64,000 nucleotides of DNA. It comes from Verrucomicrobiales bacterium. GTDB lineage: Bacteria > Verrucomicrobiota > Verrucomicrobiia > Verrucomicrobiales > V1-33. The notes beneath the pieces were generated by a model, which worked only from the letters and a program-made list of their open reading frames with translations, did no database searches and was not told the DNA's origin. Both the position numbers and the translations under genes were made by a program. Positions 18,398 through 35,013 of the stretch are shown piece after piece (position 1 is the first letter of the stretch; each line of letters opens with the position of its first letter). Location: NCBI GenBank assembly GCA_028293125.1, contig JAQGPJ010000010.1:1-64000 (forward strand). Direction: 5' to 3'.

Positions 18398-20125
18398 TCA
18401 CCCCTCCGCCTGCCGGAGGCTGGCGCGCCAGGCTTTCCAACCGCCGTGCGCGGTGATGTCCCGGGCACCCTCAAGGGCGAAGGGCTCGCAGAGAAAGCCC
18501 TTCACCGTGGTGCCGTCCGCGAGCTTCACGGTGCCGATCCCCATGGGGGGCGGCACCTCCGCCGTGAAGGAGCCGAAGGCGGCCGGCGTCAGGGCATACA
18601 CCTCCACCTCCAGGCCCGGACCCGTGAAGCCGGGGGTCCTGACCAGCCCCGGCTTGGGCGGTGCGGTGTTGGGCAGAGAGAAGAGGCGGTAGCCCGCGGC
18701 GGTGCGGGTGGTGGACACTTTCCGGGCTTGGCGGCTGGTGAGCTGGTGGTGCAGAGGCTCCCCGGAAAGGTGGGCCCCCACCACGGCCAGATGCACGGCA
18801 TCGGGGGGAAGAGGAGGCTGGAAAGGCTGGCCGTCCGCAAACTGCCCCGCCACCGCCGCCAGCGCGGAGTCATGGCCGGCGGGAGCCATGAAGGTGACCC
18901 CGAAAGGCCGCGGCGTGCCGGGCACGATGCCGGCGGGCACGGCGGCGGCGCAGAGGTTGAGCAGATTCACAAAATTGGTGTAGGTGCCCAGCCGGGTGTT
19001 CAGCGCCAAGGGATCAGACAGCACTTCCGCCACCGTGTAATGGGTGGGCACCGTGGGCAGGAGCAGGAGGTCCATTTTTTCCCACTCGGCGGAGGCGGCC
19101 TGGCGCAGCTCCTCCAGCCGGTAGCCGGCCTCGAAGGCATCCTGGGCGCTCCATTTCCCAGCCCCCCGGATAATGCCGGCCACTGTGGGATCCAGTCCCG
19201 GATGGTCCCCGGTGATGAAATCCCCGACCGCAGCGGCGCGTTCCGCGACCCACGGGCCGGCGTAAAGCAGACGGGCGGTGTCCGCGAAAGGTTGGTAATC
19301 AAACTCCACAATCTCCGCGCCCAGCTGCCCGGCCTTTTGCACGGCCTCCTCAAAAAGCCGCGCATAAGCCTGGTCTCCAAAAAACTCCAATTGCTCCGGA
19401 CAGGGCACTCCGATGCGCAGCCGGTCCGGAAAGCCCGGGCGGCCCGCGGGCTCCGGCCCGCCGGCATACTGAAGCACTTCGGCAGCCTCGGCGGCGGTCC
19501 AGGCGAAGATGGAGACACAGTCCAGGGATTTGCAGGCCGGAACCACGCCGGCGGTGCTGATGCGGCCGATGGACGGCTTCAGCCCCGCCAGTCCGTTGAA
19601 CGCCGCCGGCACACGCCCGGAGCCGGCGGTGTCCGTGCCCAGAGAAAAGGCGCACAGCCCGGCGGCCACCGCCACGGCGGACCCGGAGCTGCTGCCGCCG
19701 GAGATATAAGCGTCATCGGCCACGCAGCGCGGGATGCCGTAGGGCGAGCGCACGCCCACCAGCCCGGTGGCGAACTGGTCCATGTTGGTCTTGCCGATGG
19801 GCACCGCCCCCGCGGCCCGCAGCCGGGCGACGGATTCGGCATCCTTTTCCGCCACATAGGAGAACTCCGGACAGGCGGCGGTGGTGGGCCAGCCCGCCAC
19901 GTCGATATTGTCCTTCACGGCGAAGGGAATGCCGTAGAGTGGCAATGCCGGATCGTCCGGCAGCGAGGCCAGCAGATCCTCCATCCCCGGCTGCCAGATC
20001 CAAACTCCGTCATCCCCGCGCTCCGCGATACGGCGGCGGAGCTCTCCGTAAATCCGCGCAAGGGGGGTGCCCCCGGCCAGATCCGCGCGGATGCCGGCAA
20101 GGGTGACAGGATCGGAATGCTTCAT
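18398..20125 (-). CDS. atzF: allophanate hydrolase
   Basis: The amidase-signature core has the Ser-Ser-Lys elements: Lys in GIPFAVKDNIDVAGW (about 70) and the glycine/serine loop YISGGSSSGSAVAVAAG (about 142). The long C-terminal domain (about 430-575, ending with LCEPFALEGARDITAHGGW) distinguishes allophanate hydrolases from plain amidases and in the family decarboxylates the intermediate. The product split is allophanate to two ammonia and two CO2. Its start ATG overlaps the stop of the carboxylase gene by four bases (ATGA), so the two are translationally coupled. It is the last gene of the operon and converges with the methyltransferase gene. Confidence 0.93.
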   Translation of the reverse strand: MKHSDPVTLAGIRADLAGGTPLARIYGELRRRIAERGDDGVWIWQPGMEDLLASLPDDPALPLYGIPFAVKDNIDVAGWPTTAACPEFSYVAEKDAESVARLRAAGAVPIGKTNMDQFATGLVGVRSPYGIPRCVADDAYISGGSSSGSAVAVAAGLCAFSLGTDTAGSGRVPAAFNGLAGLKPSIGRISTAGVVPACKSLDCVSIFAWTAAEAAEVLQYAGGPEPAGRPGFPDRLRIGVPCPEQLEFFGDQAYARLFEEAVQKAGQLGAEIVEFDYQPFADTARLLYAGPWVAERAAAVGDFITGDHPGLDPTVAGIIRGAGKWSAQDAFEAGYRLEELRQAASAEWEKMDLLLLPTVPTHYTVAEVLSDPLALNTRLGTYTNFVNLLNLCAAAVPAGIVPGTPRPFGVTFMAPAGHDSALAAVAGQFADGQPFQPPLPPDAVHLAVVGAHLSGEPLHHQLTSRQARKVSTTRTAAGYRLFSLPNTAPPKPGLVRTPGFTGPGLEVEVYALTPAAFGSFTAEVPPPMGIGTVKLADGTTVKGFLCEPFALEGARDITAHGGWKAWRASLRQAEG

Positions 20126-23100
20126 GAGGGCTGGGGCTGGATGATGGCGACGACTTGTCCGGGCGCAACCTCGCGGCCCGGCGCGGTGTGGACGGAGACG
20201 ACCCTGCCAGCAACCGGCGTGCTGACCGTAACCTCCATTTTCATGGCCTCCAAAATAACCACCGTCCCGCCCTGAGCCACATCGGAGCCGGGCGCGGCAG
20301 TGATCTGCCAGACATTGGCGTTCATCGGGGCTTTCACCGCGAGGCAGCCTTCGGGGATGGGAATTTCATCCTCGCCGGAGGCCGGGCCGGCGTCATCGGT
20401 CCTGACCACATCCAGCCCTTTATCCCGCCACATGCGGCGCTCGGCTTGGAAGGCCTCTTCCCGGGTGGCTTTGAAGGCCGCGGCCTCTCCGGCCACCTCC
20501 TGCAGCAGGGCGCGGTATTCAGAAACGCGGAAGACGGTTTTCTCAATCCGGGGTGTGAATTTGCCACGGGGGAAGTCATCGCGCAGCTGGAGAAGCTCCT
20601 CCGCGCTGACCTCGTAAAAGCGGATCTGGTCGAAAAACTCCAGCAGCCAGGGTTTGCCGGGCGGGAAACTGCCGGTCTCCCGCCAGGCGTTCCACATCTG
20701 GATGGTGCGGCCCACGAACTGATAACCGCCGGGCCCCTCCATGCCGTAAACGCAGAGGTAGGCCCCACCGATGCCCACGCTGTTCTCCGCCGTCCAGGTG
20801 CGGGCGGGGTTGTATTTGGTGGTCACCAGCCGGTGCCGGGGATCCATGGGCACCGCCACGGGAGCGCCGAGATAGACATCGCCAAGTCCGAGCACCAAAT
20901 AGCTGGCGTCAAAGACAATGCGCTTCACCTCCTCCACACTGTCCAGCCCGTTGATGCGGCGGATGAACTCCAGATTGTCAGGACACCACGGGGCATCGGC
21001 CCGCACCCCGTGGATGTATTTCTCCACCGCCAGGCGGCAGGCGGGATCGTTCCAGGACAGTGGCAGATGAACGATGCGGGAGGGCACCTCCAGTGCATCC
21101 AGGGAAGGCAGGGAGAGGTCGGCGCTGCGGACCGTTTCGATCAGCCGCTGGCGCGGCAGCCGGCGGGAATCGAAGTGGATCTGAAGCGAGCGGATGCCGG
21201 GTGTGAGGTCAATGATGCCTTCCAGAGCGGCGGTATGCACCGCCTCCGCCAAGGCGTGGACACGCAGGCGGAGCTCGAAGTCCAGCACCAGCGGACCGTA
21301 CTCCACCAGCAGGTAATCGTCGCCGGCCTGACGGATTTTCAGTTCCGGCAGCCCCCCGCGCACGGGATCGCTGAAAATCACCGCCTGGGCCTCCGATGGC
21401 TGCAGAGGATGGACTGGCGGCGGCGGCACCAGGGTCAGGGAGTCCAGTTGCCGCTCCTGCGCGGTACGCAGGGCGGCGGCGTCGGAAGGAGCGAGAATTT
21501 TGAAGCGCACGGTGTCGCCCGGCTTCAGCTGGCCGACCTTCCACATCTCCGCCTCCGCCACGCAGGCCGGGCACACAAAACCGCCCAGGCTGGGACCATC
21601 CGGACCGAGGATGATCGGCATGTCGCCGGTGAAGTCGATGGCCCCGATGGCATAGGCGTTGTCGTGGATATTGGACGGGTGCAGCCCGGATTCGCCGCCG
21701 TCGGTGCGGGCCCACTCCGGTTTCGGTCCGATCAGCCGGACGCCGGTGCGGGAGGAGTTGAAATGGACCTTCCATGCATGACTGAAAATCACCTCCACGT
21801 CCCCGTCCGTGAAAAAATCCGGCGCGCCGTGCGGACCGTAGAGCACCCCGATTTCCCAACTGTCCGTCAGTGGCGGCCGCAGTTCTGTCAGGGCGGTTCC
21901 GGCATTGATTGCGCCCCGGGTGGCGGATTCATGGCCAGTGCCCAGCCGCAGCATGTCGCCCACCCGCAGCACGCGGCCCGAGTGACCCCCGAATCCTCCC
22001 AGGCTGAAAGTCGCCTGACTGCCCAGATAATCGGGAACATCGATCCCGCCGGCCACGGCGAGATAGGCCCGGCAGCCGGAGGCGCAGACCGCTCCGAGCC
22101 TGAGAATCTGTCCCGCCCGCACGGTGACCGGCGCGGCTGGCGGTACCGGCACACCATCCAGCGTGGCGTCCATATCCGCGCCGGTGAGACAGAGGGTGGA
22201 GCCGGTGTGGAATTTCAACGTGGCTCCCGCCATGGTCATCTCCAGACCGGCGGCGGTGGCCTCATTGCCGAGAATGCGGTTGGCCAGCCGCAGTGACCAG
22301 GCATCCATCGGCCCGCTGGGCGGCACTCCGACCGCCCAATAACCCAGCCGGCCCGGCCAGGCCTGAACGGTGGTGAAGGTGCCGGCCTCCAGCACCTCCA
22401 TGGTGCGGGATTCACAGGTCAGGGACTTCAGCGTGGAGGTGATGACGGTCCCGGCGGCAAAGGTTTCACTCCCGACGATCTGGCTGAGATATCCCAGATT
22501 GGTCTCCACCCCGCTCAGGTCGGCGGCGGTCAGCGCCTCCAGCATGGCCAGCCGGGCCTCCTCCCGCGTGGCGGCATGCACCATGATCTTGCCGAGCAGG
22601 GGATCGTAATACGGCGTGATTTCCGAACCCGCCCGCACCCAGTGGTCGCAGCGCGCATTCCGGGGCCAGACCACCCGCGTGAGTTTGCCGGTGCCGGGAC
22701 GGAAATCCCGCGCCGGATCCTCGGCATAGACACGGGCCTGGATGGAGTGGCCGACGGGTGGCCGCAGGAGGCTTTGAAAATCCAGTGTCTCCCCGGAGGC
22801 CAGACGCAGCATCCATTCCACCAGATCCACACCGAAAACCATCTCTGTGACTCCATGCTCAACCTGAAGCCGGGTGTTCACCTCCAGGAAGTAAAACCGG
22901 TCGGTGTCCGCATCGAACACAAACTCCACCGTCCCCGCGGAGCGGTAGGAAACCGCCTGCCCCAGTTTCACCGCGGCCGCCGCCAGGGCTTGACGGGTTT
23001 CCTCCGTCAGACCGGGCGCGGGGGTTTCCTCAATCACCTTCTGATTGCGGCGCTGGGCCGAGCAGTCACGCTCGCCGAGGGCCACGACCCGGCCTCGGCC

Positions 23101-23751
23101 ATCACCGAAAATCTGGACCTCCACATGCCGGGCACGCTCCACAAACTTTTCCAAAAACACCCCGCTGTCCCGGAAGTTGGCGGCCCCCAGGCGCTGCACG
23201 GCGGCGAGACCGTCCAGCAGTTCCTCCTCACTGCGGCAGAGTCTCATGCCAATGCCTCCCCCGCCCGCGGTGGCCTTGAGCATCACCGGCCAGCCCACGC
23301 GCCGGGCTTCGCGCAGCCCCTCGTCCGCGTCCGCCAGGAGACCGCTGCCCGGCAGGAGCGGCACACCGCACTGCTCCGCGATTTCCCGCGAGGTGTGCTT
23401 GAGGCCAAAGCGTCGGATCTGGTCTGCGGTAGGACCGGCGAAAGCGATGCCGGCGGCCTCGCAGGCTTCGGCGAAGGCGGCATTTTCACTGAGAAATCCA
23501 TAGCCGGGATGCACCGCCTGGACTCCTGTGCTTTGCGCCACTTCCAGGATGCGCTCCACCCGCAGATACGAATCCCGCGCGGCGGCGGGGCCGATGCAGA
23601 CCGCCTCGTCCGCATCCTCCACATGCTGCGCCAGGCGGTCGGCCTCGGAGAAGACGGCGACGGTTTGAATACCCAGCCGGCGGGCGGTGCGGATGACGCG
23701 GCAGGCAATCTCGCCCCGGTTGGCGATCAGCAGTTTGCGGATCAGTCCCAT
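20122..23751 (-). CDS. biotin-dependent guanidine/urea carboxylase, probably guanidine carboxylase
   Basis: The protein has 1209 residues. Biotin carboxylase: [19 protein letters not shown] at the start, [13 protein letters not shown], and [18 protein letters not shown]. The carboxyltransferase region follows, with two halves ([20 protein letters not shown], and [20 protein letters not shown]). A C-terminal biotin carrier domain has [11 protein letters not shown] with the biotinyl Lys near 1169. The start was set at GLIRKLL because upstream residues belong to the preceding gene. In GAIDFTGD the Asp at about residue 706 stands where yeast urea carboxylase has Asn (N1330 of the K. lactis enzyme, from memory). 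That change is reported for guanidine carboxylases. The start overlaps the upstream stop by 10 bases. Urea carboxylase remains the alternative. Confidence 0.9.
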
Positions 23752-24389
23752 ATCAGAAAGCGGAGAGGGGTTGGGTTCCAGCCGTTGCATGGATTGTTCA
23801 GCTGGGGACAGCAGGACACCAGCGCCACCACATCGCGCTCGGCCTGCATCTCCACATAGGTGCCCGCCGAGCCCACGCCGTCGGCGAAGAACAGTCCGCC
23901 CTCCGGCGTGACCGGGACGTTCATGAAGAAATTGATGTTGTGCGTGATATCCGCCTTGGAGGCCCCCCGGCCCCACTTGATCAGCTGGAGCATGAAGGTG
24001 TCCCGGCAGGCGTGCATCCAGCGCTTGTCCAGGGAGTAGCGCACCTGGTTGGACTCCGTGGCGCAGGCTCCGCCGATGGTGTCGTGGCGGCCACAGGTGT
24101 CGGCGGTAATGGTCAGAAGGGTGTCGCCCTCCGAGGAGATCAGATGAGTGCCCGTGGTCAGGTAAAGCGCTCCCTGCCGGCGGATGGTGCTCTGCGCGCA
24201 GTAGCGGTTGGAGAAGTCGGCGGCGTCGTAGAACAGGGTGTCGGCGGCCTGGGTGCCCTCGATATCCAGGATGCGGAAGGTCTGGCCGGCTTTGATCAGG
24301 TGCATCCAGCCATCCCCGGCGCCGATGGTGTGATCCACAATGGCTTGGCCGGGGGAAAACGGACTTTCGTGGTATTTCAGGGTGCTCAT
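23742..24389 (-). CDS. DUF1989 protein, carboxyguanidine deiminase subunit (urea carboxylase-associated protein 2)
   Basis: The protein has 215 residues with the family marks [50 protein letters not shown] and [17 protein letters not shown]. Pairs of these proteins were long called urea carboxylase-associated proteins 1 and 2. In guanidine-using bacteria the pair is now known as CgdA/CgdB, which hydrolyse carboxyguanidine to allophanate and ammonia. Conserved Cys and His residues ([13 protein letters not shown]) suit metal binding. It overlaps the gene before it by 4 bases and the carboxylase after it by 10, as expected for a coupled pathway operon. Confidence 0.88.
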
Positions 24390-25111
24390 GGGTCGGAGGA
24401 AGGATGGGCCAGGAAGCGTTCGGTCAGGGCCAGACTGCGGGCGTTCTCCCGGCGGAAGGTGCGGCAGAAGTCATCAGCGGCGGGTGGGCCGCCCTGAAGC
24501 AGGGTGAGCAGCAGAGGCTTCGGCGCATAGGCCGGATCCGGATCCATCGGATGCTGGCAGGTGGTGATCACCACGATGAGGTCCATCTCTGCCCGCAGCT
24601 CCACGAGGGAGCCGGTGGCGGAATGGTCCGGATGGAACGCCAGCCCTCCCTCCTCATCGGCGTCCAGCCGGGAGAAGAAGTTGACATTGGCGTGCAGATC
24701 CCGGGGGCTCAGGCCATGCTTGCCGGCCTCCACGAGGAAATTGTCACGGGCGTTCCGGTGCCAGTCATTGCGGGCCTCCTGATAGGTTTTGGCTCCGTAT
24801 TTGGCCAGAGTTTCGACGGCATTGGCATGTCCGCCGAGGGGATCGTGCCATCCCGCGGTGTCAGTGATGATGGAGGCCAGGGCGCGGCCCATGTCGCTCA
24901 TGAGGATGTGGCCGCGCGTCAGTTTGGCGGTGTGCTGGGCTTTCAGAGTGTCCGGCAGGTTCAGGCGGTCGGACGGCTGGGCGAAGTTCCACATCATCAG
25001 GCCGGCGTTGACGCCACCCTCCAAATCCGTCAGGCGCAGCACGCTGTGCCGCCGGACCACAGCGGACCAGAGGCCGCCTCCGGACAGGTGTTCTTCATAA
25101 AGGAGGGTCAT
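24386..25111 (-). CDS. DUF1989 protein, carboxyguanidine deiminase subunit (urea carboxylase-associated protein 1)
   Basis: Chosen start ATG at 25111 ([19 protein letters not shown]); the 32 codons upstream have no family similarity, and AGGAGG is not seen before either start. The protein has 241 residues with [53 protein letters not shown] and [19 protein letters not shown]. It is paralogous to the next gene (WHDPLGG against RHDTIGG, NVNFF against NINFF), fitting a two-subunit deiminase. It sits between the ABC transporter ATPase and its partner, and its stop overlaps the partner's start by 4 bases. Confidence 0.88.
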
Positions 25112-25184: not shown

Positions 25185-26084
25185 TCACTCCACCTCGTCG
25201 GCCACACGGGTCATGCGGGCCATGGGCAGAAAGTCGGGCTCGTCGATGTCTGCCGACGCGGGCGGATGGATCAGAGCCTCCAGCCGCGCCTTGACGGCCA
25301 GAAACTCCGGGCTTGGAAACTGTGCCGCCGAGCGTGGGCGGGGCACAGGGTTTTCAATGATCTCGCGGAGGCCGCCGGGATGGGTGCCCAGGACCACAAT
25401 GCGGTCGGAGAGGTGAATGGCCTCGTCCAGATCGTGGGTGATAAAGAGAATGGTGATGTCCACCTTCCTCCAGATTTGGAGCAGATAGCCCTGCATGCGG
25501 GTGCGCGTCTGGGCGTCCAGCGCGCCGAAGGGCTCATCCATGATGAGGATGCGCGGCTCATTGGCGAGGGCGCGGGCGATGGCCACACGCTGTTTCATGC
25601 CGCCGGAAAGCTGGTGCGGATACGCGTTCTCAAAATTCCCCAGCCCCACCATGTGAATCCACGTGCGGGCGTTCTCCTCGGCGGTGATGGTGCTCTGGCC
25701 CTTCAGCTTCAGGCCGAACATGACATTGGCCTTCACGGTCAGCCACGGGAAAAGTGTGTAGCCCTGGAAGACCATGCCGCGGTCGGGTCCGGGTCCGGTG
25801 ACTTCCTTGCCATTGAGCCGGATGACCCCGCCGGTGGCCTCATCCAGGCCGGCGGCGATGCGCAGGAAGGTGCTTTTGCCGCAGCCGGAAGGACCGATGA
25901 CGGTGATGAACTCCCGGCGGTGGATGTCGAGGTCCAGTCCCTCGAACACCGTGTGCATGCGGTCTCCGGTGGGAAAGGACTTGGTCAGACCGCGCACCTC
26001 CAGGATGACAGGCCGCTCTTTGATCCTGGCGAAGCGGGCGGCGGTTTCCGGAGACTGCCGGAGGTAGGCGGCGGGATCAATCAT
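25185..26084 (-). CDS. ABC transporter ATP-binding protein (nitrate/taurine type)
   Basis: It carries Walker A (GPSGCGKST), Q-loop ([11 protein letters not shown]), signature ([15 protein letters not shown]), Walker B with DEPFGALD, and the H-loop (THDLDEA). The 299-residue length and the FPW segment are typical of importers for nitrate, taurine and similar small solutes. Its start overlaps the permease stop by 8 bases. A 73-bp gap separates it from the first DUF1989 gene. It powers the import system of the guanidine operon. Confidence 0.92.
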
Positions 26085-27153
26085 GCTGCGGAAGCGGTGA
26101 GGGTTCGGAGGAGAGTGCGGGTGTTGGTGCCGCCGCTATGGGTGCCGCCGGGAACTTCCGGTTTAGAAACCGGCGGATCACGCCCCCGCCGCTTTTGGAG
26201 CCAGGCTGGCGCTGCCAGGGGAAAATCCAGCGGCCGGTCCAAGCCAGAAGAAGATCCGTCACCAGGCCGATGATTCCGATCATGATGATCGCGGCGAAGA
26301 CATTGTCGAACTGCCGGTAGCGCGCCTGCTGGCTGATGAACCAGGTGATGCCCGAGGTGGTGCCGATGACCTCGGAAACAATCAGATAGGTCCAGGCCCA
26401 GCCCAGCAGAATCCGCATGTCCTTGTAGATATCCGGAAGGGATGCCGGGATGATGATTTTGGTCACCAGCTGGCGGTGATTGGCCCCGAGGGTCTGCGCG
26501 GCCTCAATGAGGGCGGGGTCGGTCTTGCGCACGGTGTTGGCAATGACCAGCACCTGCTGGAAAAATGTGCCGATGAAAATGATGGCGATCTTCGGGGCAT
26601 CATAAATGCCCAGCACCGCCACGCAGAGCGTTCCGAAAGCGGGGGCCGGCAAATAGCGGAAGAACTCGATGAAAGGCTCGATGAGCCGCGAGAAGAACCG
26701 GAAGGCCCCGCACAGAATGCCCAGCGGCACCCCAATGAGCGAGGACAGGAAAAAGCCCCAAAAAACCACTTTGATGCTGTGCCACAGGCTTTCGTGCAGC
26801 CACGGTTGACCGGGCAGACGAGGCTCAGTGGTGAAAGCGGTATGAAAGGCTTTGAAAACCTCATCCGGAGCGGGAAGATACACCGGATTGACCCGGTGGC
26901 CGGTGGCGGGCTGGAGACCCTGGGCCACGGCGGCGGCGTTCTCGCGCTCAAAATCCTGGCGGGGCAGCGTGTCGCCCGGCGAAAGAACCTCCACCTCCCC
27001 TGAATCCTCGACCAGGACCTGAGGATGCCACAGCCACGGGAGGTAGCTGACCGCGCACCACAGCGCGAGCGGCAGGAGGAACGAGGCCAGCACCAGCCCG
27101 GCGCGCCGCTTGGGAGGCAGCTCCTGCTTCAGTCCGAAAAAATCCCGCTTCAT
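26077..27153 (-). CDS. ABC transporter permease (nitrate/taurine type)
   Basis: The protein has 358 residues with an N-terminal membrane segment (LVLASFLLPLALWCAVSYL), a periplasmic insert and then five or so membrane segments. The coupling motif that touches the ATPase is visible: EAAQTLGANHRQLVTKIIIP. The TauC/SsuC-like core runs from about 125 to 320. A proline/alanine-rich cytoplasmic tail is extra. It belongs to the same importer as its neighbours. Confidence 0.9.
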   Translation of the reverse strand: MKRDFFGLKQELPPKRRAGLVLASFLLPLALWCAVSYLPWLWHPQVLVEDSGEVEVLSPGDTLPRQDFERENAAAVAQGLQPATGHRVNPVYLPAPDEVFKAFHTAFTTEPRLPGQPWLHESLWHSIKVVFWGFFLSSLIGVPLGILCGAFRFFSRLIEPFIEFFRYLPAPAFGTLCVAVLGIYDAPKIAIIFIGTFFQQVLVIANTVRKTDPALIEAAQTLGANHRQLVTKIIIPASLPDIYKDMRILLGWAWTYLIVSEVIGTTSGITWFISQQARYRQFDNVFAAIIMIGIIGLVTDLLLAWTGRWIFPWQRQPGSKSGGGVIRRFLNRKFPAAPIAAAPTPALSSEPSPLPQHD

Positions 27154-27253: not shown

Positions 27254-28237
27254 TTACTTCTTAAGTCCCATCACAATGCTAGGGGCGATATAGTTTTCCG
27301 CCTTCTGGCTTTCCTTGTAAACTTTGTTATCGAGGCTGAACTTGTTGGAGACCGCCAAGGAGGCGTAGAGGGAATCGAGACCGGGGCCTTTTTTCAGCGC
27401 TTTCTGGGCCTCCGCCAAGGTGAGCAGCTTGGTGCCGGGAAGGTTCTTTTTATAAACGCTGTCCTTCACGCCGACTTTGGCGGCCATGATTTTGATGGCG
27501 TCGTCCTGGGTTTTGGGGTCCAGAATGTAGTCCACGCAGCGGTAGTAAACCTTCACATATTTTTCCCAGTCGGCCTTGCGCTGGGACAGGCTGGTGGGGC
27601 TGACGGCCAGCACATCGTAGATCAGGCCGGGGGCGTCGGCGGAGGTGAAAAGAGCTTTGGAGCCGGAGACGGCGTCCAGCGCCTGGCCGGAAACCGGATA
27701 CCACGCGCCGATGGCGGAGACCTGGCCGCTGGCCAGCACCTGCGGGGTTTCGTTGGTGGCGGTGTTGAGCAGGGTGATGTCGGACTGCTTCATGCCGTTT
27801 TTCTCCAAAGCCTTCAGCATCAGCAGGTGCTCCACCAGAGTGAGCTCCAGTCCGACTTTCTGGCCCTTGAGATCCTTGATGGAGTTCACTCCGGGCTTGC
27901 CGATGATCATGTCGTTGCCGTTCGAGTAATCCAGCACCGCGATGAACTTGCTGCGGGCTCCGTTGGCTCCGGCCACCATGGCGTCGGCGGCCACCACGGT
28001 CACGGCGTCCACCTTGCCGGCGGAGAAGGCGTCGATGGAGGGCAGGTAGTCGAACCAGAGGAGTTCCACCTCAATGCCGGCCTCCTTGAACCAGCCTTTC
28101 TGTTTGGCGACTTCGATGAGCGTGAAGCCGGGCCAGTCGGAGTAGGCGACCTTGAGCGGTTCGGCGGCAAGGGCACGGAGGGAGCCGGCCAGACAGAGCG
28201 CGGCGGCGAGGAGGGCGGAGAGCTTGTGTTTCAGCAT
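27254..28237 (-). CDS. ABC transporter substrate-binding protein (NitT/TauT family)
   Basis: The start was set at MLKHKLSALLAAALCLAGSLRALAA, a clean signal peptide cut before EPLKVAYSDWPGF. The protein has 327 residues. The fold marks are KVAYSDWPGFTLIEVAKQKG, WFKEAGIEVELLWFDY, LKGQKVGLELTLVEHLL and DAVTVVAADAMVAG. Family members bind small nitrogen or sulfur solutes. The operon suggests guanidine, or a guanidine-yielding compound. It is the first gene of the minus-strand operon, and its promoter region holds a large dyad (28312-28332) shared with the divergent NikR-like gene. Confidence 0.9.
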   Translation of the reverse strand: MLKHKLSALLAAALCLAGSLRALAAEPLKVAYSDWPGFTLIEVAKQKGWFKEAGIEVELLWFDYLPSIDAFSAGKVDAVTVVAADAMVAGANGARSKFIAVLDYSNGNDMIIGKPGVNSIKDLKGQKVGLELTLVEHLLMLKALEKNGMKQSDITLLNTATNETPQVLASGQVSAIGAWYPVSGQALDAVSGSKALFTSADAPGLIYDVLAVSPTSLSQRKADWEKYVKVYYRCVDYILDPKTQDDAIKIMAAKVGVKDSVYKKNLPGTKLLTLAEAQKALKKGPGLDSLYASLAVSNKFSLDNKVYKESQKAENYIAPSIVMGLKK

Positions 28238-28311
28238 GGCGGGAAGTGGTGAGCTGACACCCGGAAAAGCAGGCCCTGTGCCACGGGCCGGCGGAGAGTA
28301 AGACGAATTTA

Positions 28312-28332
28312 CGGTTTTGTATGACAGAACCG
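28312..28332. promoter_or_regulatory. 21-bp operator-like dyad between the transporter operon and the NikR-like gene
   Basis: The left arm CGGTTTTGT and right arm ACAGAACCG are inverted repeats with one mismatch in nine, around the spacer ATG. It lies 75 bp before the binding-protein start on one side and 46 bp before the regulator start on the other. The core TGTATGACA includes GTATGA, the half-site of E. coli NikR, but no TCATAC partner at the E. coli spacing is present. Confidence 0.65.
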
Positions 28333-28377: not shown

Positions 28378-28836
28378 ATGTCAAAGAAACAGGCTGTTTC
28401 CCCTCCCGCCTCCCGTGGCGCCGCCTGCCGGGTGACGCTGAGCCTGCCCGCCGGCGTGACCCGCCAGCTGGATGAGCTGGTGGCCGCCGGCATTCACTCC
28501 AACCGCTCACAGGCCGCCGCCAAGCTGCTGGCCGGAGCCCTCATCGGCGGTGCCCGGCCGACGGGCCATCAGGTGCTGGCGGGCACCGTGACCCTGACCT
28601 ACCGGCACGACAAACGCGGGGTGGAGGCCACCCTGGCCAAAATCCAGCACACCTGGCTGAAGGAGGTGGTGAGCAGCCAGCGGGTCCACCTTTCCCGCGG
28701 CCAGACACTGGAGGTGATCCTGCTGCAGGCTCCCGGTCCGGTGCTCCGACGCATCGCCGACGAGCTGATCGCCTGCAAGGGCGTGGAGAACGGCCAGCTT
28801 TACATCTGTTCGGAGGTCCTGCCGCCACTGCATTGA
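28378..28836 (+). CDS. NikR-like ribbon-helix-helix regulator lacking part of the nickel site
   Basis: The protein has 152 residues. The N-terminal ribbon-helix-helix is RVTLSLPAGVTRQLDELVAA, then SNRSQAAAKLL. The C-terminal ACT-like ligand domain has GTVTLTYRHDKRGVEATLAK, IQHTWLKEVV and LEVILLQAP. E. coli NikR binds Ni2+ through His76, His87, His89 and Cys95. By alignment the counterparts here are His91, Arg102, His104 and Thr110, so two ligands are gone. It is divergent from the guanidine-type operon across 140 bp that hold a 21-bp dyad. I infer that it controls that operon with a signal other than tight nickel binding. A 16-residue N-terminal extension precedes the usual start. Confidence 0.82.
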   Translation: MSKKQAVSPPASRGAACRVTLSLPAGVTRQLDELVAAGIHSNRSQAAAKLLAGALIGGARPTGHQVLAGTVTLTYRHDKRGVEATLAKIQHTWLKEVVSSQRVHLSRGQTLEVILLQAPGPVLRRIADELIACKGVENGQLYICSEVLPPLH

Positions 28837-28890: not shown

Positions 28891-31800
28891 TCAGGCGTTG
28901 TCCACCGGCCCGGAATCCAAGGCCGCCGGCTCCGGATCCGCAGGGACCGCAGCCGGGAAGGGGGCGGGGGTGGTGCCGCCGGAGGCGCTGATTTGGCGCT
29001 GGATGGCACTGAGGAGTTTCTCCATTTCCTGATCCGCATGGTGCCACCAGTCGGTGGACCAGATGCGGTGCAGCGTCCAGCCCAGTCCCTCCAGGATCAG
29101 CTGGCGGAGCTTGTCGCGGTCACGCGCGGTGGCGGCGCGGTGGTAGGTGGCGCCGTCGCATTCCACGCCGAGAAGATAGCGGCCCGGAGCCGCGGGATCC
29201 ACCACCGCCAGATCCAGGCGGTAGCCGGAGCAGCCCACCTGATGATGGACCTCGTAACCATGGCTCCGCAGCCGGTCGGCCACCATGCGCTCGAATTCCG
29301 AATCCGGCTCCGCCACAGCGCTGGCCAGGGTGGCGGATGTCAGGGCGCGGGGGCCGCGCTCGGCGTAATCCAGGAAGTATTTCAAATCCTGCACCCCGCG
29401 GGACCGGGTGCGGGTGAGGTCGATCTGATCGGCCCGCAGCCCGCTGAAGACCAGCACCTCGTGCTTGGCGCGGGTGATGGCCACATTCAGCCGCCGCTCG
29501 CCGCCGTCGCGGTTGAGCGGTCCGAAGTTCATGCTCACGCGTCCGCTTTCATCCGGTCCATAACAGATGGAGAACAGGATCACATCCCGCTCGTCGCCCT
29601 GCACGTTCTCAAGGTTTTTCACAAAAACCGGCTCTCCCTCCACGGGCGGTTTATCGCCGAAGTGATGCTCGATTTCCGGATACTGGCGGCGCTCCTCGTC
29701 CAGCAGGTTTTCCACCAGATTCTGCTGGGCCTGGCTGAAGGTCACCACGCCGAAAGACCGGAGAGGGCCGACGGGATCCCGCAGCCGGGCGCTCAGTTCC
29801 TTCACCAGGGCTTCGGCCTCGCGGCGGTTGGTGCGGGATTTTCCCTTGTCATAGCGGGCCTCCGGGAGATGGCGGAACCGCACGCCGCCGTTGAGGGTAT
29901 CGGGGCCGGGGAAGGTCAGCAACTGGTTGTCGTAATATTGCCGGTTGCTGAAGGCGATCAGCCCCTCATGGCGGCTGCGGTAGTGCCACTGGAGCCGTTT
30001 GTGGCGGAGACCATTGCCCATCAGCTCATCCAGAATGCTTTCAAGGTCCCGGTGCTCCGCCGGCGCGGTGCCCTCCTCGTCATCCGGATCGCCGCCGCCG
30101 CCGCCGAAGAAGTTGGTGGGGGGCAGCTGTTTGGGATCGCCGACCACGATCAGCTGCGAACCGCGGGCGATGGCCCCGATGGCATCCCACACGGGAATCT
30201 GGGAGGCCTCGTCAAAAATCACCACGTCAAAATTCCGGTGCGAGGCTTCGAGATACTGCGCCACGGACAGCGGGCTCATCAGCACGCAGGGTTTCAGCCG
30301 GGGCAGCAGGGAGGGGATGCGGCTCAGAAGCTGCCTTACCGGGATGTGCCGGGCGCGCTTGCCGATCTCCTTCCGCAGCAGGCCGATCTCCGCGTCGGGA
30401 ATGCCCTCAATGCCCTGCTGCTCCCGGGGAATGCCGGCGGAGAGGCGCGAGTGAATGAGGTCGCGGGAGAGGGTGGCCAGCGTGGTGTCCAAGCTGCGGA
30501 AACGCTCGATGCGGGCCGCATGCTCCGCGCCGAAGAAATCCCGCAGTGCGGGTTCGGTGTCCATCACCGCAAACAGGAAGGCCCGCCGGAAGCTGCGCTC
30601 GAAAAGCTCCGGGACGTCCACAGCGGGGACCGCCGCCGTAGCGGATTCAATACGGTTCACCACCGGTCCCAGATGCAGGGCCAACGCCTCCTGGCGGGCT
30701 TTCTGCCAGGAGCACCACTCGCGGACCCGGGGCCAGGCGGCTGTCAGGGCATCGGCCTGCGCGGTCACCGCGCCCAAGTGGTCCGACGCGCCATTGATGC
30801 TTTTGCGGTCCAGCCGGACCTCCTGCGAGAAGGTGTCCAAGGCACGGGTCACATCCAGCCAGGCGGTGCGGAAAGCTGTCAGGCGGTCACCGATGGAGGT
30901 GCCGGCGGCAAGGACGGCAGGGCCCTCGTTGAAAAGATCCGCCAGCAGGCGGCGCAGCCGGCCGGGCCATGCGGAATCGTCGCCGGCCAGTGCCTGGATG
31001 CGGGAGTGCAGGGTTTCGCCCCAGGCGCGGGCTTGGGCCAGGGAGTCCGCCTGGGGTTCGCCGTTTTTCCAAAGCTGGCCCAGACAGGCCTGGGCGGCGG
31101 GGGCGGCGGCGGTCAGTTTGTCATTGATGGCCAGGAGACGGGGCGCGCCCTCCAGGAACCGGGCCAGGACACCTCCGGTGGCGGTGAAATGATCGGTCTG
31201 CCCATCCGGTGACGGCGGCTGGAGCGCGGCCTCGCGGAAAAAGGCGGCGCGGGCCTCCTCAAAGTCGTCAAAGGCGGTGCGGAAACCGGTTAGCAGCCGG
31301 CCGGCGGGAGTTCCCGGACCGTAACCCGCCGGCCCCAAAGGGAGAACCTCGGCCAGGATGCCGCGCATCCGCAGCAGCCAGGCGTTGTCGCCGGAGGCCA
31401 GCAGCGCCAGGCGGTCATGCAGCACCCGGCCCCACTCCCGCACCCGGAGCAGCGAGTGAGCCTCCGGCTCGCCGCCCTTCCACGCCTTGCCCAGCAGGGA
31501 TTCCGCCTGGGCGCAGACCGTGGCCAGGCCGCGCTGAATGCCGCGGAGACGCAGAGCGGTGGTCAGGGTGCCGCCCATGGCGTCCACCGAGGGGTCTCCG
31601 GCCGTGCTCCGGGCGGTGCGCAGCTGCCGGCGGAGAAAACCCGTGCTGAGGAAGCGGGGCAGAAACCACCCGGTGCGGGCGGTCCGGCACTTCTGTTCCA
31701 GCAGATCGAGATCGAGGGCCAGCAGAGCCTTTTCATCATAAGCGTCGCCGGCCAGCCGGGACCGCAGCTCCTCCCGCTCCTCCGCCAGGGTGGTCCATTG

Positions 31801-34800
31801 CTGGAGATCGCCTGACCATTCCTGCCAAGGGGCCACCGCCAGCCGGCTGCCGGCGGTCACAGGGGTCAGAAGACTGTCTGTCAGGGCTGACAATGCCGTG
31901 AGACTGGCTTGGGAGATCAGTGGCGTGGCGGTGCCGAGCCAGCGGCGCAGCGCCTGTGTGGCCTCCGCCGCTTTGGTGCGGAGGGTCTCCAGATCACGGG
32001 CCCGCTGGAACAGTCCGGCGGCCTCCGCCGCGCTCCACGACTCCGCAGGAACGGTGGCGCCCTCATCCGTCAGCGCGGGGAGCAGCTGGCGCACCGCTGT
32101 CCGCAGGGTGGCCCGCTCCTTCACCAGAGCGGTCCAGCCATCCACCAAGGCCGAAACCTCATGCCACGGAGATGTGATGAAGCCGCCGGCCACGGGCTCC
32201 GGAGCCAGCAGGCTTTCCACCAGCCGCAGCAGGTGGTTCAGCGCGGCGCGCGTGGGCGCGCCCGGAAACTGCAGCCAGTCACGGAGGCCGGCGCTGGCGG
32301 ACTGGGCGGCTAGGGCTTTGGTTTTGAGTCCCTGGATCCTGCCCAGCGTGCCTTCGGCCCAGCCAGGGGACCAATCCGCCCACGCGAGTGGGGAAAGCGG
32401 ATGCTCCGCCAAGGGAATCAGCGGCCTGGACCGCTCCTGCAGCACATGGCAGAGGTGGCGGGCCTGATCCAGTGTCTCCGGAGTGGTTTCCAGAATGGCC
32501 GGCCACTCTTCCAGCCGCACCGTGTCCTCCTCCCGGCGGGGCAGCAGGTAATCCAGGCAGTGATAAGCCGTCAGGCGGCAGGGATATAAAGAATGAAGCG
32601 TGCGCGTGTAGGTGTTGAGCACCGCGCGCAGACGCTCCAGTTCCGAGGCGCGCCGTTCCCAGTCAGTGTGCTCATCGTTCAGACGCACCTTCAGACTGCG
32701 GCTGAACTGGCTCAGCACCTCCGCCTTGCCGGTTTTGTTGGAGTGCAGCTCCAGACAGAACGGCTCCAGTCCGTCCTCCCGCAGCCGGCGGTGCACCACG
32801 TCCAGGGCGGCGCGTTTCTCGGCCACGAAGAGAACCCGCTTCCCCTGCGACAGGCAGTGGGCGATGATGTTGGCGATGGTCTGGGATTTACCGGTGCCGG
32901 GCGGCCCCTCAAGGACAAAGTCGTGTCCCGCGGCGGCGGCCATGACAGCAGCCAGCTGGGAAGAGTCGGCGCTGCGGGTGCAGTGAATCTCACGGGGATG
33001 GAATTGGTCGTCCAGCTGGCGCGGCTCAATGTCGCCGGGGGGATTCGGAAAGGTTTTGCCGGCACCGTGAATCAGGTGGTTGACGATGCGGTTGCGGGTC
33101 AGATCCTCCAGCCGGTCGGTCAGATCCTTCCAAAGCAGGAACTTGGTGAAGGAGAACTGTCCCAGCCAGACTTCGGACTTCACCTCCCAGCCGGGCATAT
33201 CCCGGACGGCGTCGCGGAAAATCTGAAGCACCCGTGCGGCATCGATGCCCTGGTCATCCTCGGGCAGGGGATCCAGACCGGGGATGTCCTTGCGGAAATC
33301 CTGCCGCAGCATCTCCATCAGCGTGACATTCAGCCGGGCCTCCTCGTCCAGCCGGCGCAGGGAAAAGCCCTCCAGCACCGACTTCCGCCGCAGCTCCACC
33401 GGCACCAGCAGCAGCGGCGCCTGATACGGGCGGTCGCTGAACTCCGTCTCCCGCCACTCCAGAATGCCCACCGCCGCGAACAGGGTGTTGCTGCCGTTCT
33501 CATCCAGGGCGTTGCGGGCGGCGCGGTAAAGCTCAGTCAGGCGCGGGCCGTGCTCGGTCTCTTCCAGATGCGTGTGCAGGCGGCCATGGAGAAGCTCATC
33601 GCGCAGGTGGTCCGCCAAGGCGTCCGTCCGCTGCTGCAGGGTGTCCAGGGCAGCGCTGCGCGGATCCTCCGGACTCATCACACGCGGTCTGGGCAGCAGC
33701 GACAGCTCCCGCTCACCGGCCAGGGCGTCCTCCACCTTCTCCGGCTCGGCGGACATGATGCGGATGGTGGCTTTGGTCTCCCGCAGATTCAGCAGGCGGT
33801 TGCGCAGGCTGAGGTCCAGGAGACGGCTTTTCCAAAGATCGATGCGGCTGCCCGCTTTGGCCTGGCCATCGGCGGACGGAACAGTCAGGGAATCGGCGAA
33901 CTCCCGGCTGCCGAGGCCCGCCGCGCCGGTGCGGTTCCTTTCCGGACCGGACGCCCCGCCGCTTTCCGGAAGCTCCTGGCCAGGAATGGGCAGGGGGCGG
34001 ATGCCCGCGCGGCGGGCTGCGCGGACATCCAGCGCCACCCGGAAGGGCAAAGCGGTCCGGAGGTGCGGTTTGGCCGCCTGCTCGGCGTCGTTGAGATTGC
34101 CCGGTGTGTCCCAAGTGGTGCACGTGGCCTCGAAAACAGTGATGAGCGCCTCATTCTCCAGCTTGCGGATATGCTGGAGATCATCGCCGGCCGGTTGGGG
34201 CAGAGAGCGCTCCTCCAGCCAGCAGCCCGCATAGGCGTGTCCCTCGTGGATCAGCACCAGCGGCCGCAGACCCGCCTGCTCGCAGCAGGCGGCGGACAGC
34301 AGCGCCAGATCCAGACAGGTGCCGAACCTCTGGCTGACGATGTCCGAAGGGAAGCGGACCTTCTGACCGGTGTTTTCAAAACTGGCCGGCGGATTGATGT
34401 AGCGGATGCCGAGCCCGGAGATGGCTTTGTGGATGGCGGCAACCTGCTCCCAGGCACGCCTGCGGCTGCGGTCCTGATACCCATTGATGGCGGACCGTCC
34501 GGTGGATTCCTGAAGAATCTCCGAGGCTTGGCCGAGAATGCCCATCACCGCCGGATCATTGGGCGTCACGAAGGCCGCCAGAATCTCCGGCAGGGCTGTC
34601 AGTCCGCACCATTCATTCCTCGCCAGCAGGGAAACGGGCTCGGTCAGAGACTGCACGGTCCGCCCATCCTCCTCCAGGAGCTCCACTTTCAGCCAGCCGC
34701 TGACCTTTTCATTCAGGCCGGCGAAAAAATCGTGGCTCATTTTCAGATTCACGGGAGCCTGCCGGAATTCCCCGTCCGGAGCGATGGACTGGAGGCGGAT

Positions 34801-35013
34801 TTCGGCCGGGGTGGCGAAAGCCGGCTCCGTGCTGACCCGCAGCACAAGGTTCCGGCGGGGGACGGCGTCGTTTTTCAAATGCAGCTCCTTGATCACCGGC
34901 ACGGCATTCTGCTGGAACGCGTAGTTGGTGGAGTGGTCGTGGCTGATGGTGAGCGCCGGCACCGTCGGGGAGGATTCCTCGGGATAAAAGGCGTGCACGG
35001 GTTCGGACATCAT
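28891..35013 (-). CDS. DUF4011-helicase-Vsr protein (Hhe-like anti-phage defence)
   Basis: The protein has 2040 residues. An N-terminal region includes a transglutaminase-like segment with FGTCLDLALLSAACCEQAGL and HEGHAYAGCW (about 230-265). DUF4011 begins near 394 (WKSRLLDLSLRNRLLNLRET). The superfamily 1 helicase has Walker A EGPPGTGKSQTIANIIA (about 707), a long helical insert (about 850-1500), then VIFDEASQIPVWDA and VVGDPKQLPPT (about 1600) and the RecA2 motifs (VQGDERDVILFS, NVAITRAKHEVLVF). A C-terminal Vsr/DUF559-type nuclease domain follows (about 1900-2000: YRLDLAVVDP, LGVECDGATYH). This architecture matches the single-gene Hhe defence system as I recall it from Gao and colleagues (2020). 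A second Met at 35010 is an alternative start. Confidence 0.88.
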   Translation of the reverse strand: MMSEPVHAFYPEESSPTVPALTISHDHSTNYAFQQNAVPVIKELHLKNDAVPRRNLVLRVSTEPAFATPAEIRLQSIAPDGEFRQAPVNLKMSHDFFAGLNEKVSGWLKVELLEEDGRTVQSLTEPVSLLARNEWCGLTALPEILAAFVTPNDPAVMGILGQASEILQESTGRSAINGYQDRSRRRAWEQVAAIHKAISGLGIRYINPPASFENTGQKVRFPSDIVSQRFGTCLDLALLSAACCEQAGLRPLVLIHEGHAYAGCWLEERSLPQPAGDDLQHIRKLENEALITVFEATCTTWDTPGNLNDAEQAAKPHLRTALPFRVALDVRAARRAGIRPLPIPGQELPESGGASGPERNRTGAAGLGSREFADSLTVPSADGQAKAGSRIDLWKSRLLDLSLRNRLLNLRETKATIRIMSAEPEKVEDALAGERELSLLPRPRVMSPEDPRSAALDTLQQRTDALADHLRDELLHGRLHTHLEETEHGPRLTELYRAARNALDENGSNTLFAAVGILEWRETEFSDRPYQAPLLLVPVELRRKSVLEGFSLRRLDEEARLNVTLMEMLRQDFRKDIPGLDPLPEDDQGIDAARVLQIFRDAVRDMPGWEVKSEVWLGQFSFTKFLLWKDLTDRLEDLTRNRIVNHLIHGAGKTFPNPPGDIEPRQLDDQFHPREIHCTRSADSSQLAAVMAAAAGHDFVLEGPPGTGKSQTIANIIAHCLSQGKRVLFVAEKRAALDVVHRRLREDGLEPFCLELHSNKTGKAEVLSQFSRSLKVRLNDEHTDWERRASELERLRAVLNTYTRTLHSLYPCRLTAYHCLDYLLPRREEDTVRLEEWPAILETTPETLDQARHLCHVLQERSRPLIPLAEHPLSPLAWADWSPGWAEGTLGRIQGLKTKALAAQSASAGLRDWLQFPGAPTRAALNHLLRLVESLLAPEPVAGGFITSPWHEVSALVDGWTALVKERATLRTAVRQLLPALTDEGATVPAESWSAAEAAGLFQRARDLETLRTKAAEATQALRRWLGTATPLISQASLTALSALTDSLLTPVTAGSRLAVAPWQEWSGDLQQWTTLAEEREELRSRLAGDAYDEKALLALDLDLLEQKCRTARTGWFLPRFLSTGFLRRQLRTARSTAGDPSVDAMGGTLTTALRLRGIQRGLATVCAQAESLLGKAWKGGEPEAHSLLRVREWGRVLHDRLALLASGDNAWLLRMRGILAEVLPLGPAGYGPGTPAGRLLTGFRTAFDDFEEARAAFFREAALQPPSPDGQTDHFTATGGVLARFLEGAPRLLAINDKLTAAAPAAQACLGQLWKNGEPQADSLAQARAWGETLHSRIQALAGDDSAWPGRLRRLLADLFNEGPAVLAAGTSIGDRLTAFRTAWLDVTRALDTFSQEVRLDRKSINGASDHLGAVTAQADALTAAWPRVREWCSWQKARQEALALHLGPVVNRIESATAAVPAVDVPELFERSFRRAFLFAVMDTEPALRDFFGAEHAARIERFRSLDTTLATLSRDLIHSRLSAGIPREQQGIEGIPDAEIGLLRKEIGKRARHIPVRQLLSRIPSLLPRLKPCVLMSPLSVAQYLEASHRNFDVVIFDEASQIPVWDAIGAIARGSQLIVVGDPKQLPPTNFFGGGGGDPDDEEGTAPAEHRDLESILDELMGNGLRHKRLQWHYRSRHEGLIAFSNRQYYDNQLLTFPGPDTLNGGVRFRHLPEARYDKGKSRTNRREAEALVKELSARLRDPVGPLRSFGVVTFSQAQQNLVENLLDEERRQYPEIEHHFGDKPPVEGEPVFVKNLENVQGDERDVILFSICYGPDESGRVSMNFGPLNRDGGERRLNVAITRAKHEVLVFSGLRADQIDLTRTRSRGVQDLKYFLDYAERGPRALTSATLASAVAEPDSEFERMVADRLRSHGYEVHHQVGCSGYRLDLAVVDPAAPGRYLLGVECDGATYHRAATARDRDKLRQLILEGLGWTLHRIWSTDWWHHADQEMEKLLSAIQRQISASGGTTPAPFPAAVPADPEPAALDSGPVDNA

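Follow-up and report, generated by a model that had tools for sequence, protein, structure and literature searches.

The nearest described relative of the regulator analysed here is the nickel regulator NikR, whose square-planar Ni site is formed by His87, His89, Cys95 and His76' and whose operator in E. coli is GTATGA-N16-TCATAC (PMC7055735). Bacterial guanidine sensing is so far known through riboswitches only. Enterobacteria use guanidine-I to control the genes for the importer and CgdAB, and guanidine-II to control those for carboxylase and hydrolase; a 2025 review treats guanidine-binding transcription factors as something that future research may reveal (PMC12186494). Another RHH protein that answers a non-metal small molecule is the c-di-GMP-binding CdbA of Myxococcus xanthus; unlike the proteins considered here it has a role in nucleoid organisation, and its abstract describes no NikR_C-type sensor domain (PMC7156744). 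A literature search for work linking NikR with guanidine, urea carboxylase or allophanate hydrolase returned nothing relevant, with subscription papers mostly outside its coverage.

Here we describe a clade of NikR-like proteins that resembles NikR of E. coli, H. pylori and P. horikoshii in fold, RHH domain, operator spacing and half-site, and place beside an ABC importer cluster. Unlike NikR, its members have no Cys95 and variable histidines, carry Gln in place of Lys/Arg at position 102, Glu at 81, Gln at 30 and a Pro-Pro tail, form a separate clade, and adjoin importer and enzyme genes for guanidine rather than nickel. The target genes are the same as those under guanidine-I and guanidine-II control (PMC12186494), but at the head of the operon a protein and a predicted DNA operator take the place of guanidine-I, and guanidine-II may persist downstream in Proteobacteria.

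The window analysed is a 64,000-nucleotide stretch of contig JAQGPJ010000010.1 from a Verrucomicrobiales bacterium. One gene (28378..28836, + strand) encodes a NikR-fold regulator of 152 aa with an ATG start, an RHH domain at about residues 17-60 and an ACT-like C-domain at residues 66-146. The protein matched PF08753 (NikR_C) at 70.8 bits over residues 68-142 (cut-off 22) and gave near end-to-end phmmer alignments to two NikR structures, 2bj1 from P. horikoshii (E 6e-21) and 1q5v from E. coli (E 4e-10). The AlphaFold model had a mean pLDDT of 84.8, with residues 66-146 mostly above 90, and Foldseek superimposed the C-domain model on the Ni-bound NikR C-domain 2y3y_A at 0.9 A over 82 columns (TMt 0.95). 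The matches listed by Foldseek for the window protein were all NikR; full-length TM-scores were low, probably reflecting a flexible inter-domain link. An RHH domain followed by NikR_C places the protein in NikR by fold and homology, and its scores stayed below the NCBI nikR equivalog cut-offs (87.4 against 105 for NF003381, 55 against 175 for TIGR02793). No second NikR_C match was found in the 6.5 Mb source genome. In both the phmmer and the MAFFT alignment H76, H87, H89 and C95 of E. coli correspond to H91, R102, H104 and T110, with no gaps in the ligand region of the phmmer alignment, and the window protein lacks the square-planar Ni site. It carries two marks of the clade, Q117 (in LQA here, in VQG in most members) and a C-terminal LPPLH.

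Divergent from the regulator, on the minus strand, lies an operon that begins with a NitT/TauT-type ABC importer made up of a substrate-binding protein (SBP) of NMT1/SsuA type (27254..28237; best NCBIfam match TIGR03427, under its cut-off), a permease (26077..27153) and an ATPase (25185..26084). These are followed by the carboxyguanidine deiminase subunits of CgdA type (UAAP1, 24386..25111; TIGR03425, 309.6 bits; ATG at 25111 picked by inspection) and CgdB type (UAAP2, 23742..24389; TIGR03424, 301.4 bits), a guanidine carboxylase annotated as urea carboxylase (20122..23760; TIGR02712, 1835.6 bits; Asp in GAIDF) and an allophanate hydrolase (18398..20125; TIGR02713, over its cut-off). TIGR03425, TIGR03424, TIGR02712 and TIGR02713 were all above cut-off, the combination by which we recognise a guanidine carboxylase operon. 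CgdAB is diagnostic of guanidine breakdown (Schneider et al. 2020, cited in PMC12186494), and its presence assigns the window operon to this route. The active site has Asp in guanidine carboxylases and Asn in urea carboxylases (PMC12186494). In our alignment the carboxylase motif was GAIDF in the window and GAINF in the yeast-type enzyme 3va7, and Asp was found in 96 of 97 readable carboxylases linked to the regulator clade. We take the GAIDF/GAINF column to be the published Asp/Asn position. A preliminary description of this DNA had claimed that H91 and H104 are kept while R102 and T110 replace the other two ligands, that the DNA-binding and ACT-like domains are intact, and that the gene adjoins a guanidine-type operon. 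The observation is borne out: two alignments agree on the residues, and all genes of the operon were found, with the key NCBIfam scores above cut-off.

The 140-bp divergent intergenic region holds a predicted operator, GTAAGAC-N14-GTATGAC (GTAAGACGAATTTACGGTTTTGTATGAC; 28298..28325, unstranded), with NikR spacing, 60 bp from the SBP start and 52 bp from the regulator start. Using a matrix trained without the window it scored 9.8 bits, compared with -2.3 for the next best position in the 64 kb and a maximum of 4.8 in 60 shuffles. It is the only such site in the window and is weaker than most in the clade. This operator, overlooked in the preliminary description, is the strongest evidence for what the regulator controls. 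No sigma-70-like promoter was found near it, so repression is not arguable from promoter overlap in the window. An inverted repeat, CGGTTTTGT/ACAGAACCG (28312-28332), was also considered as the operator and was dropped for the NikR-spaced motif, which recurs elsewhere.

NikR_C was found in 84 of the 384 genomes of the window's class, and gene context around these loci was determined with tblastn. Every NikR-like locus lacking Cys95 (48/48) stood in a guanidine carboxylase operon, and none of the 17 HHHC (ligand-complete) NikR loci with flanks lay beside guanidine genes. The typical operon of the 48 consists of the ABC importer, CgdAB, a carboxylase with the guanidine-type Asp and allophanate hydrolase. 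One of the 48, L057, shows carboxylase and hydrolase only, and a second copy in the same genome, L060, adjoins CgdAB; L070 is a shortened copy, and the truncated relic L072, from a genome without CgdA, was left out of the count. Among class genomes with CgdA, 47 of 55 carry the NikR variant and 8 do without. Scanning GTDB species genomes with the variant alignment gave 444 relatives. The best 80 of the 444 came from Verrucomicrobiota and many Proteobacteria, with genera including Methylovorus, Methylobacillus, Methyloversatilis, Parvibaculum, Hyphomicrobium and Curvibacter, and 65 of these best 80 had cgdA inside the fetched locus. A whole-genome search of 14 further genomes, among loci without adjacent cgdA, found cgdA elsewhere in 13. 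In one proteobacterial order four genomes scored 230-238 bits with the clade profile (A2) and other NikRs at most 116 bits. In a tree computed without the four ligand columns (123 columns, quick search, inner branching unused) the variants formed one side of a branch with SH-aLRT 98. The ligand loss in the window goes beyond chance, since a monophyletic family shows it again, together with the same gene neighbourhood. The importer is of NitT/TauT type, not NikABCDE, and the constant neighbours among the genes searched for are the guanidine genes. The preliminary description had asked whether the variant recurs beside guanidine or urea carboxylase operons, which the class loci and the wider relatives answer in the affirmative, and had named linkage to nickel genes as counting against its reading; no such linkage was seen among the genes searched for. 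Its proposal of a new use of the NikR fold gains support from sequence and context, namely the clade and its guanidine linkage.

Dyads of 5-7 bases with spacers of 0-24 were counted upstream of the importer gene with no preset motif. The top dyad in this unsupervised count was GTATTA-N16-TAATAC, and a 28-bp palindrome, GTATTAC-N14-GTAATAC, recurs with exact NikR spacing before the importer or regulator gene. Compared with the E. coli operator the spacing is the same, one base is changed per half-site, and the position is likewise upstream of target genes. The E. coli operator itself, allowing up to 3 mismatches at spacing 16, occurred in 58 of 87 regions; the corresponding numbers were 8-10 for shuffled regions and 4-27 for spacings other than 16. 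With a PWM trained on Verrucomicrobiota, 32 of the 35 regions from Proteobacteria exceeded the 99% background level, and the reverse training direction gave 20 of 37. A site of at least 9 bits was present in 116 of 128 variant loci, in most cases a short distance ahead of the gene for the regulator, the importer or CgdA, and the operator was found in none of the eight class guanidine operons lacking the regulator. Exact GTAWTAC-N14-GTAWTAC occurred in 18 of 29 whole genomes, one or two each; the exact sites whose surroundings were read were all at the importer or regulator gene, and a reversed control pattern gave zero matches in the 29 genomes. The importer lies apart from the regulator in three genomes, with some 45 kb between them on one contig in G227 and the two on separate contigs in G287 and G076. 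In G227 and G287 one site is at the regulator and a second at the distant importer gene, and by likeness to these the second site of G076 (C160) is taken as its importer site. Sites at distant importers are the best evidence that regulator and sites belong together. Some Akkermansiaceae half-sites are nearer those of E. coli (GTGTGA/GTATGA-N16-TCATAC). Similar sites also occur at some of the class's HHHC NikR loci, so the operator was probably inherited from ordinary NikR and is not unique to the clade.

From these data we consider it probable that the protein is a NikR-derived regulator of guanidine uptake and breakdown that acts through the old NikR operator and has lost nickel sensing. Taken separately, it is very likely a dedicated regulator of the guanidine operon acting through the predicted operator, and with similarly little doubt it is not nickel-responsive. 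In the mechanism we propose, the clade would have kept the NikR architecture (RHH plus ACT-like domain) and the operator geometry, with half-sites about two helical turns apart, and would have given up the nickel site. The regulator, we infer, would bind the predicted operator ahead of its own gene, of the guanidine importer genes, or of both. It would most likely act as a repressor and also control its own expression, and guanidine or a close guanidino or pathway metabolite would bind the C-terminal domain and cause operator release. The identity of the effector is held less firmly, with guanidine, or a guanidino or pathway metabolite, rated slightly more likely than not. That the whole clade is a widespread transcription factor family sensing guanidine or a guanidino compound, derived from NikR by loss of the metal site with the operator kept, we rate at about even chances.

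The arrangement of riboswitches bears on the effector. No Rfam match for guanidine-I, II or III was found in the window. A guanidine riboswitch as the regulator of the window operon was rejected, with none at gathering threshold in the window and none to E = 5 in the intergenic region. Guanidine-I was not found in the 384 class genomes, a search that scores only a small number of candidates in each genome, so that a miss is possible. In the proteobacterial order of G388, guanidine-I was present in 17 of 20 CgdA genomes. Of the three CgdA genomes lacking it, G469 and G552 carry the regulator within the operon and G493 has neither; G444 has both regulator and guanidine-I, at separate loci. In proteobacterial operons the regulator would stand where other bacteria have the guanidine-I riboswitch, and, with counts that are small, its occupation of this position suggests guanidine or a near relative as the inducer. 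Among nine proteobacterial regulator loci, six (L188:9849-9897, L162:9952-9999, L179:9874-9920, L152:9916-9962, L209:9887-9931 and L166:10307-10353) carry guanidine-II (mini-ykkC) directly ahead of the carboxylase gene, and because of this guanidine sensing is partly provided already in these loci.

A second gene module also bears on the signal. In many loci a pair encoding a creatininase-family amidohydrolase and a type III glutamine synthetase (GlnT, TIGR03105) lies between the importer and the NikR-like gene (L163:5810-7950; also L141, L178, L211, L263 and L266, and verrucomicrobial loci such as L046). Genome G388 has at this locus only the importer, the creatininase-family gene, GlnT, the regulator and the operator, with no CgdA or urea/guanidine carboxylase in the genome, and in G444 the regulator and an ABC-creatininase-GlnT module are separate from a riboswitch-run guanidine operon. 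Because the G388 module exists without guanidine genes, the effector may be a metabolite common to both modules. ACT-like folds often bind small amino acids. Instead of guanidine, the regulator could read nitrogen status in general, or a compound made by the linked amidohydrolase and glutamine synthetase (glutamine, ammonia or a gamma-glutamyl compound, for example), with the ACT-like domain as the binding site and guanidine itself read by guanidine-II. The position of the GlnT and creatininase-family genes between importer and regulator, guanidine-II before the carboxylase in the six proteobacterial loci, the separation from guanidine genes in G388 and G444, and the frequency of small amino acids as ACT-like ligands all speak for such a signal. 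However, the creatininase-GlnT module is missing beside the regulator in the window and in other verrucomicrobial loci, and in the one proteobacterial order the regulator is found in CgdA operons without guanidine-I, which is the position of an inducer sensor. We regard a nitrogen signal as possible but unlikely, and retain guanidine or a related compound as the favoured effector.

Ligand residues were compared between 119 variants and 62 HHHC NikRs; the variant set was defined by the missing Cys95, and linkage and monophyly were not so defined. Cys95 is kept in 0/119 members and is replaced by Thr (51%), Tyr (11%) or Val (10%). Position 76 (E. coli numbering) is Arg, His or Tyr, position 87 is His in 87% of the clade, and position 89 is His in 52% and otherwise mostly Leu or Gln, giving 37 ligand-residue combinations among the 119 members with none of the four positions invariant. 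Other positions are held: Gln at 102 is found in 100% of the clade, where HHHC proteins have Arg/Lys, Glu at 81 in 87% and Gln at 30 in 89%, an extra Pro-Pro motif is present at the C-terminus, and G, L and P residues elsewhere in the alignment are invariant. At the low-affinity/K+ site (Glu30, Asp34) the 89% Gln at position 30 is accompanied mostly by Glu at 34, and position 30 varies in HHHC NikRs too. The metal site thus decays in many ways while the rest is held, as expected once selection for metal binding has ceased. Near the old metal site we recognised no new pocket of invariant acidic or aromatic residues. One conserved acidic pocket that would take guanidinium was considered and rejected: position 91 is Glu in most Verrucomicrobiota and often Met, Thr or Ala in Proteobacteria, and because of this variation we make no claim for a guanidinium pocket.

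These residues also bear on whether the protein is still a metal sensor, for nickel or another metal with changed ligands, that would switch the metal-independent guanidine route against metal-dependent urease or guanidinase. Such a role would fit the lineages that keep H76, H87 and H89 (HHHY, HHHT, HHHS) and the use of the NikR operator, but Cys95 is gone in all 119 members, large subclades with the same operon and operator have Arg or Tyr at 76 and Leu or Gln at 89, and the clade has no linkage to nickel genes among the genes searched for, so we judge it improbable. Because none of the four ligand positions is conserved, a different metal at the old site appears unlikely for the clade on residue grounds, less so for the members keeping three histidines. 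A NikR that is degenerating or independent of any ligand, surviving under relaxed constraint as a remnant that binds DNA constitutively, would account for the 37 ligand combinations and for the relic L072 in a genome without the operon, but is very improbable given the fully conserved Gln at 102, the invariant G, L and P residues, the long-term linkage across two phyla, the operator kept in trans in three genomes (in G076 with the second site assigned by likeness), and the absence of CgdA from the L072 genome while a genus mate has both regulator and operon.

What appears to be new here is that a derivative of NikR has another regulon and, very probably, another ligand than NikR itself. The clade is a concrete candidate for a guanidine-responsive protein in hundreds of genomes, many of them of culturable methylotrophs, and the effector question is directly testable because culturable hosts and a defined 28-bp operator are available. 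If the favoured reading is true, this would be the first guanidine-responsive regulatory protein and a metalloregulator turned into an organic-ligand sensor within its own fold. The clade also shows how a metal sensor probably comes to change its ligand, with the DNA side kept and the metal site decaying in many ways. Proteobacterial members such as L163 exceed the NF003381 and NF002815 cut-offs and would be called NikR, so members over these equivalog cut-offs would be misnamed as nickel regulators.

Several loci showed further features. The truncated NikR-like relic L072:4495-4830 is of HHHY type and lies in genome G075, which is without CgdA; its genus mate G137 keeps gene and operon. Eight class guanidine operons (L115-L122) have no adjoining NikR-like gene, operator of this gene or recognised riboswitch, and three of them (L116, L118, L119) show the gene order carboxylase-hydrolase-CgdAB with Cys at the carboxylase Asp/Asn position. 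Genome G258 holds the two diverged NikR-like copies L057 (carboxylase/hydrolase) and L060 (CgdAB), as if the operon had split and the regulator been duplicated. Beside the guanidine operon of L033, an RF02514 (5' ureB sRNA) match falls on a likely urease alpha gene (L033:4401-4690 and neighbouring ORFs), which would probably place urease next to a urease-independent nitrogen route. In the window, the NikR-like gene is followed downstream by a gene on the minus strand (28891-35013) for a 2040-aa protein with DUF4011, SF1 helicase and MTES_1575 nuclease domains, which resembles candidate defence helicase-nucleases.
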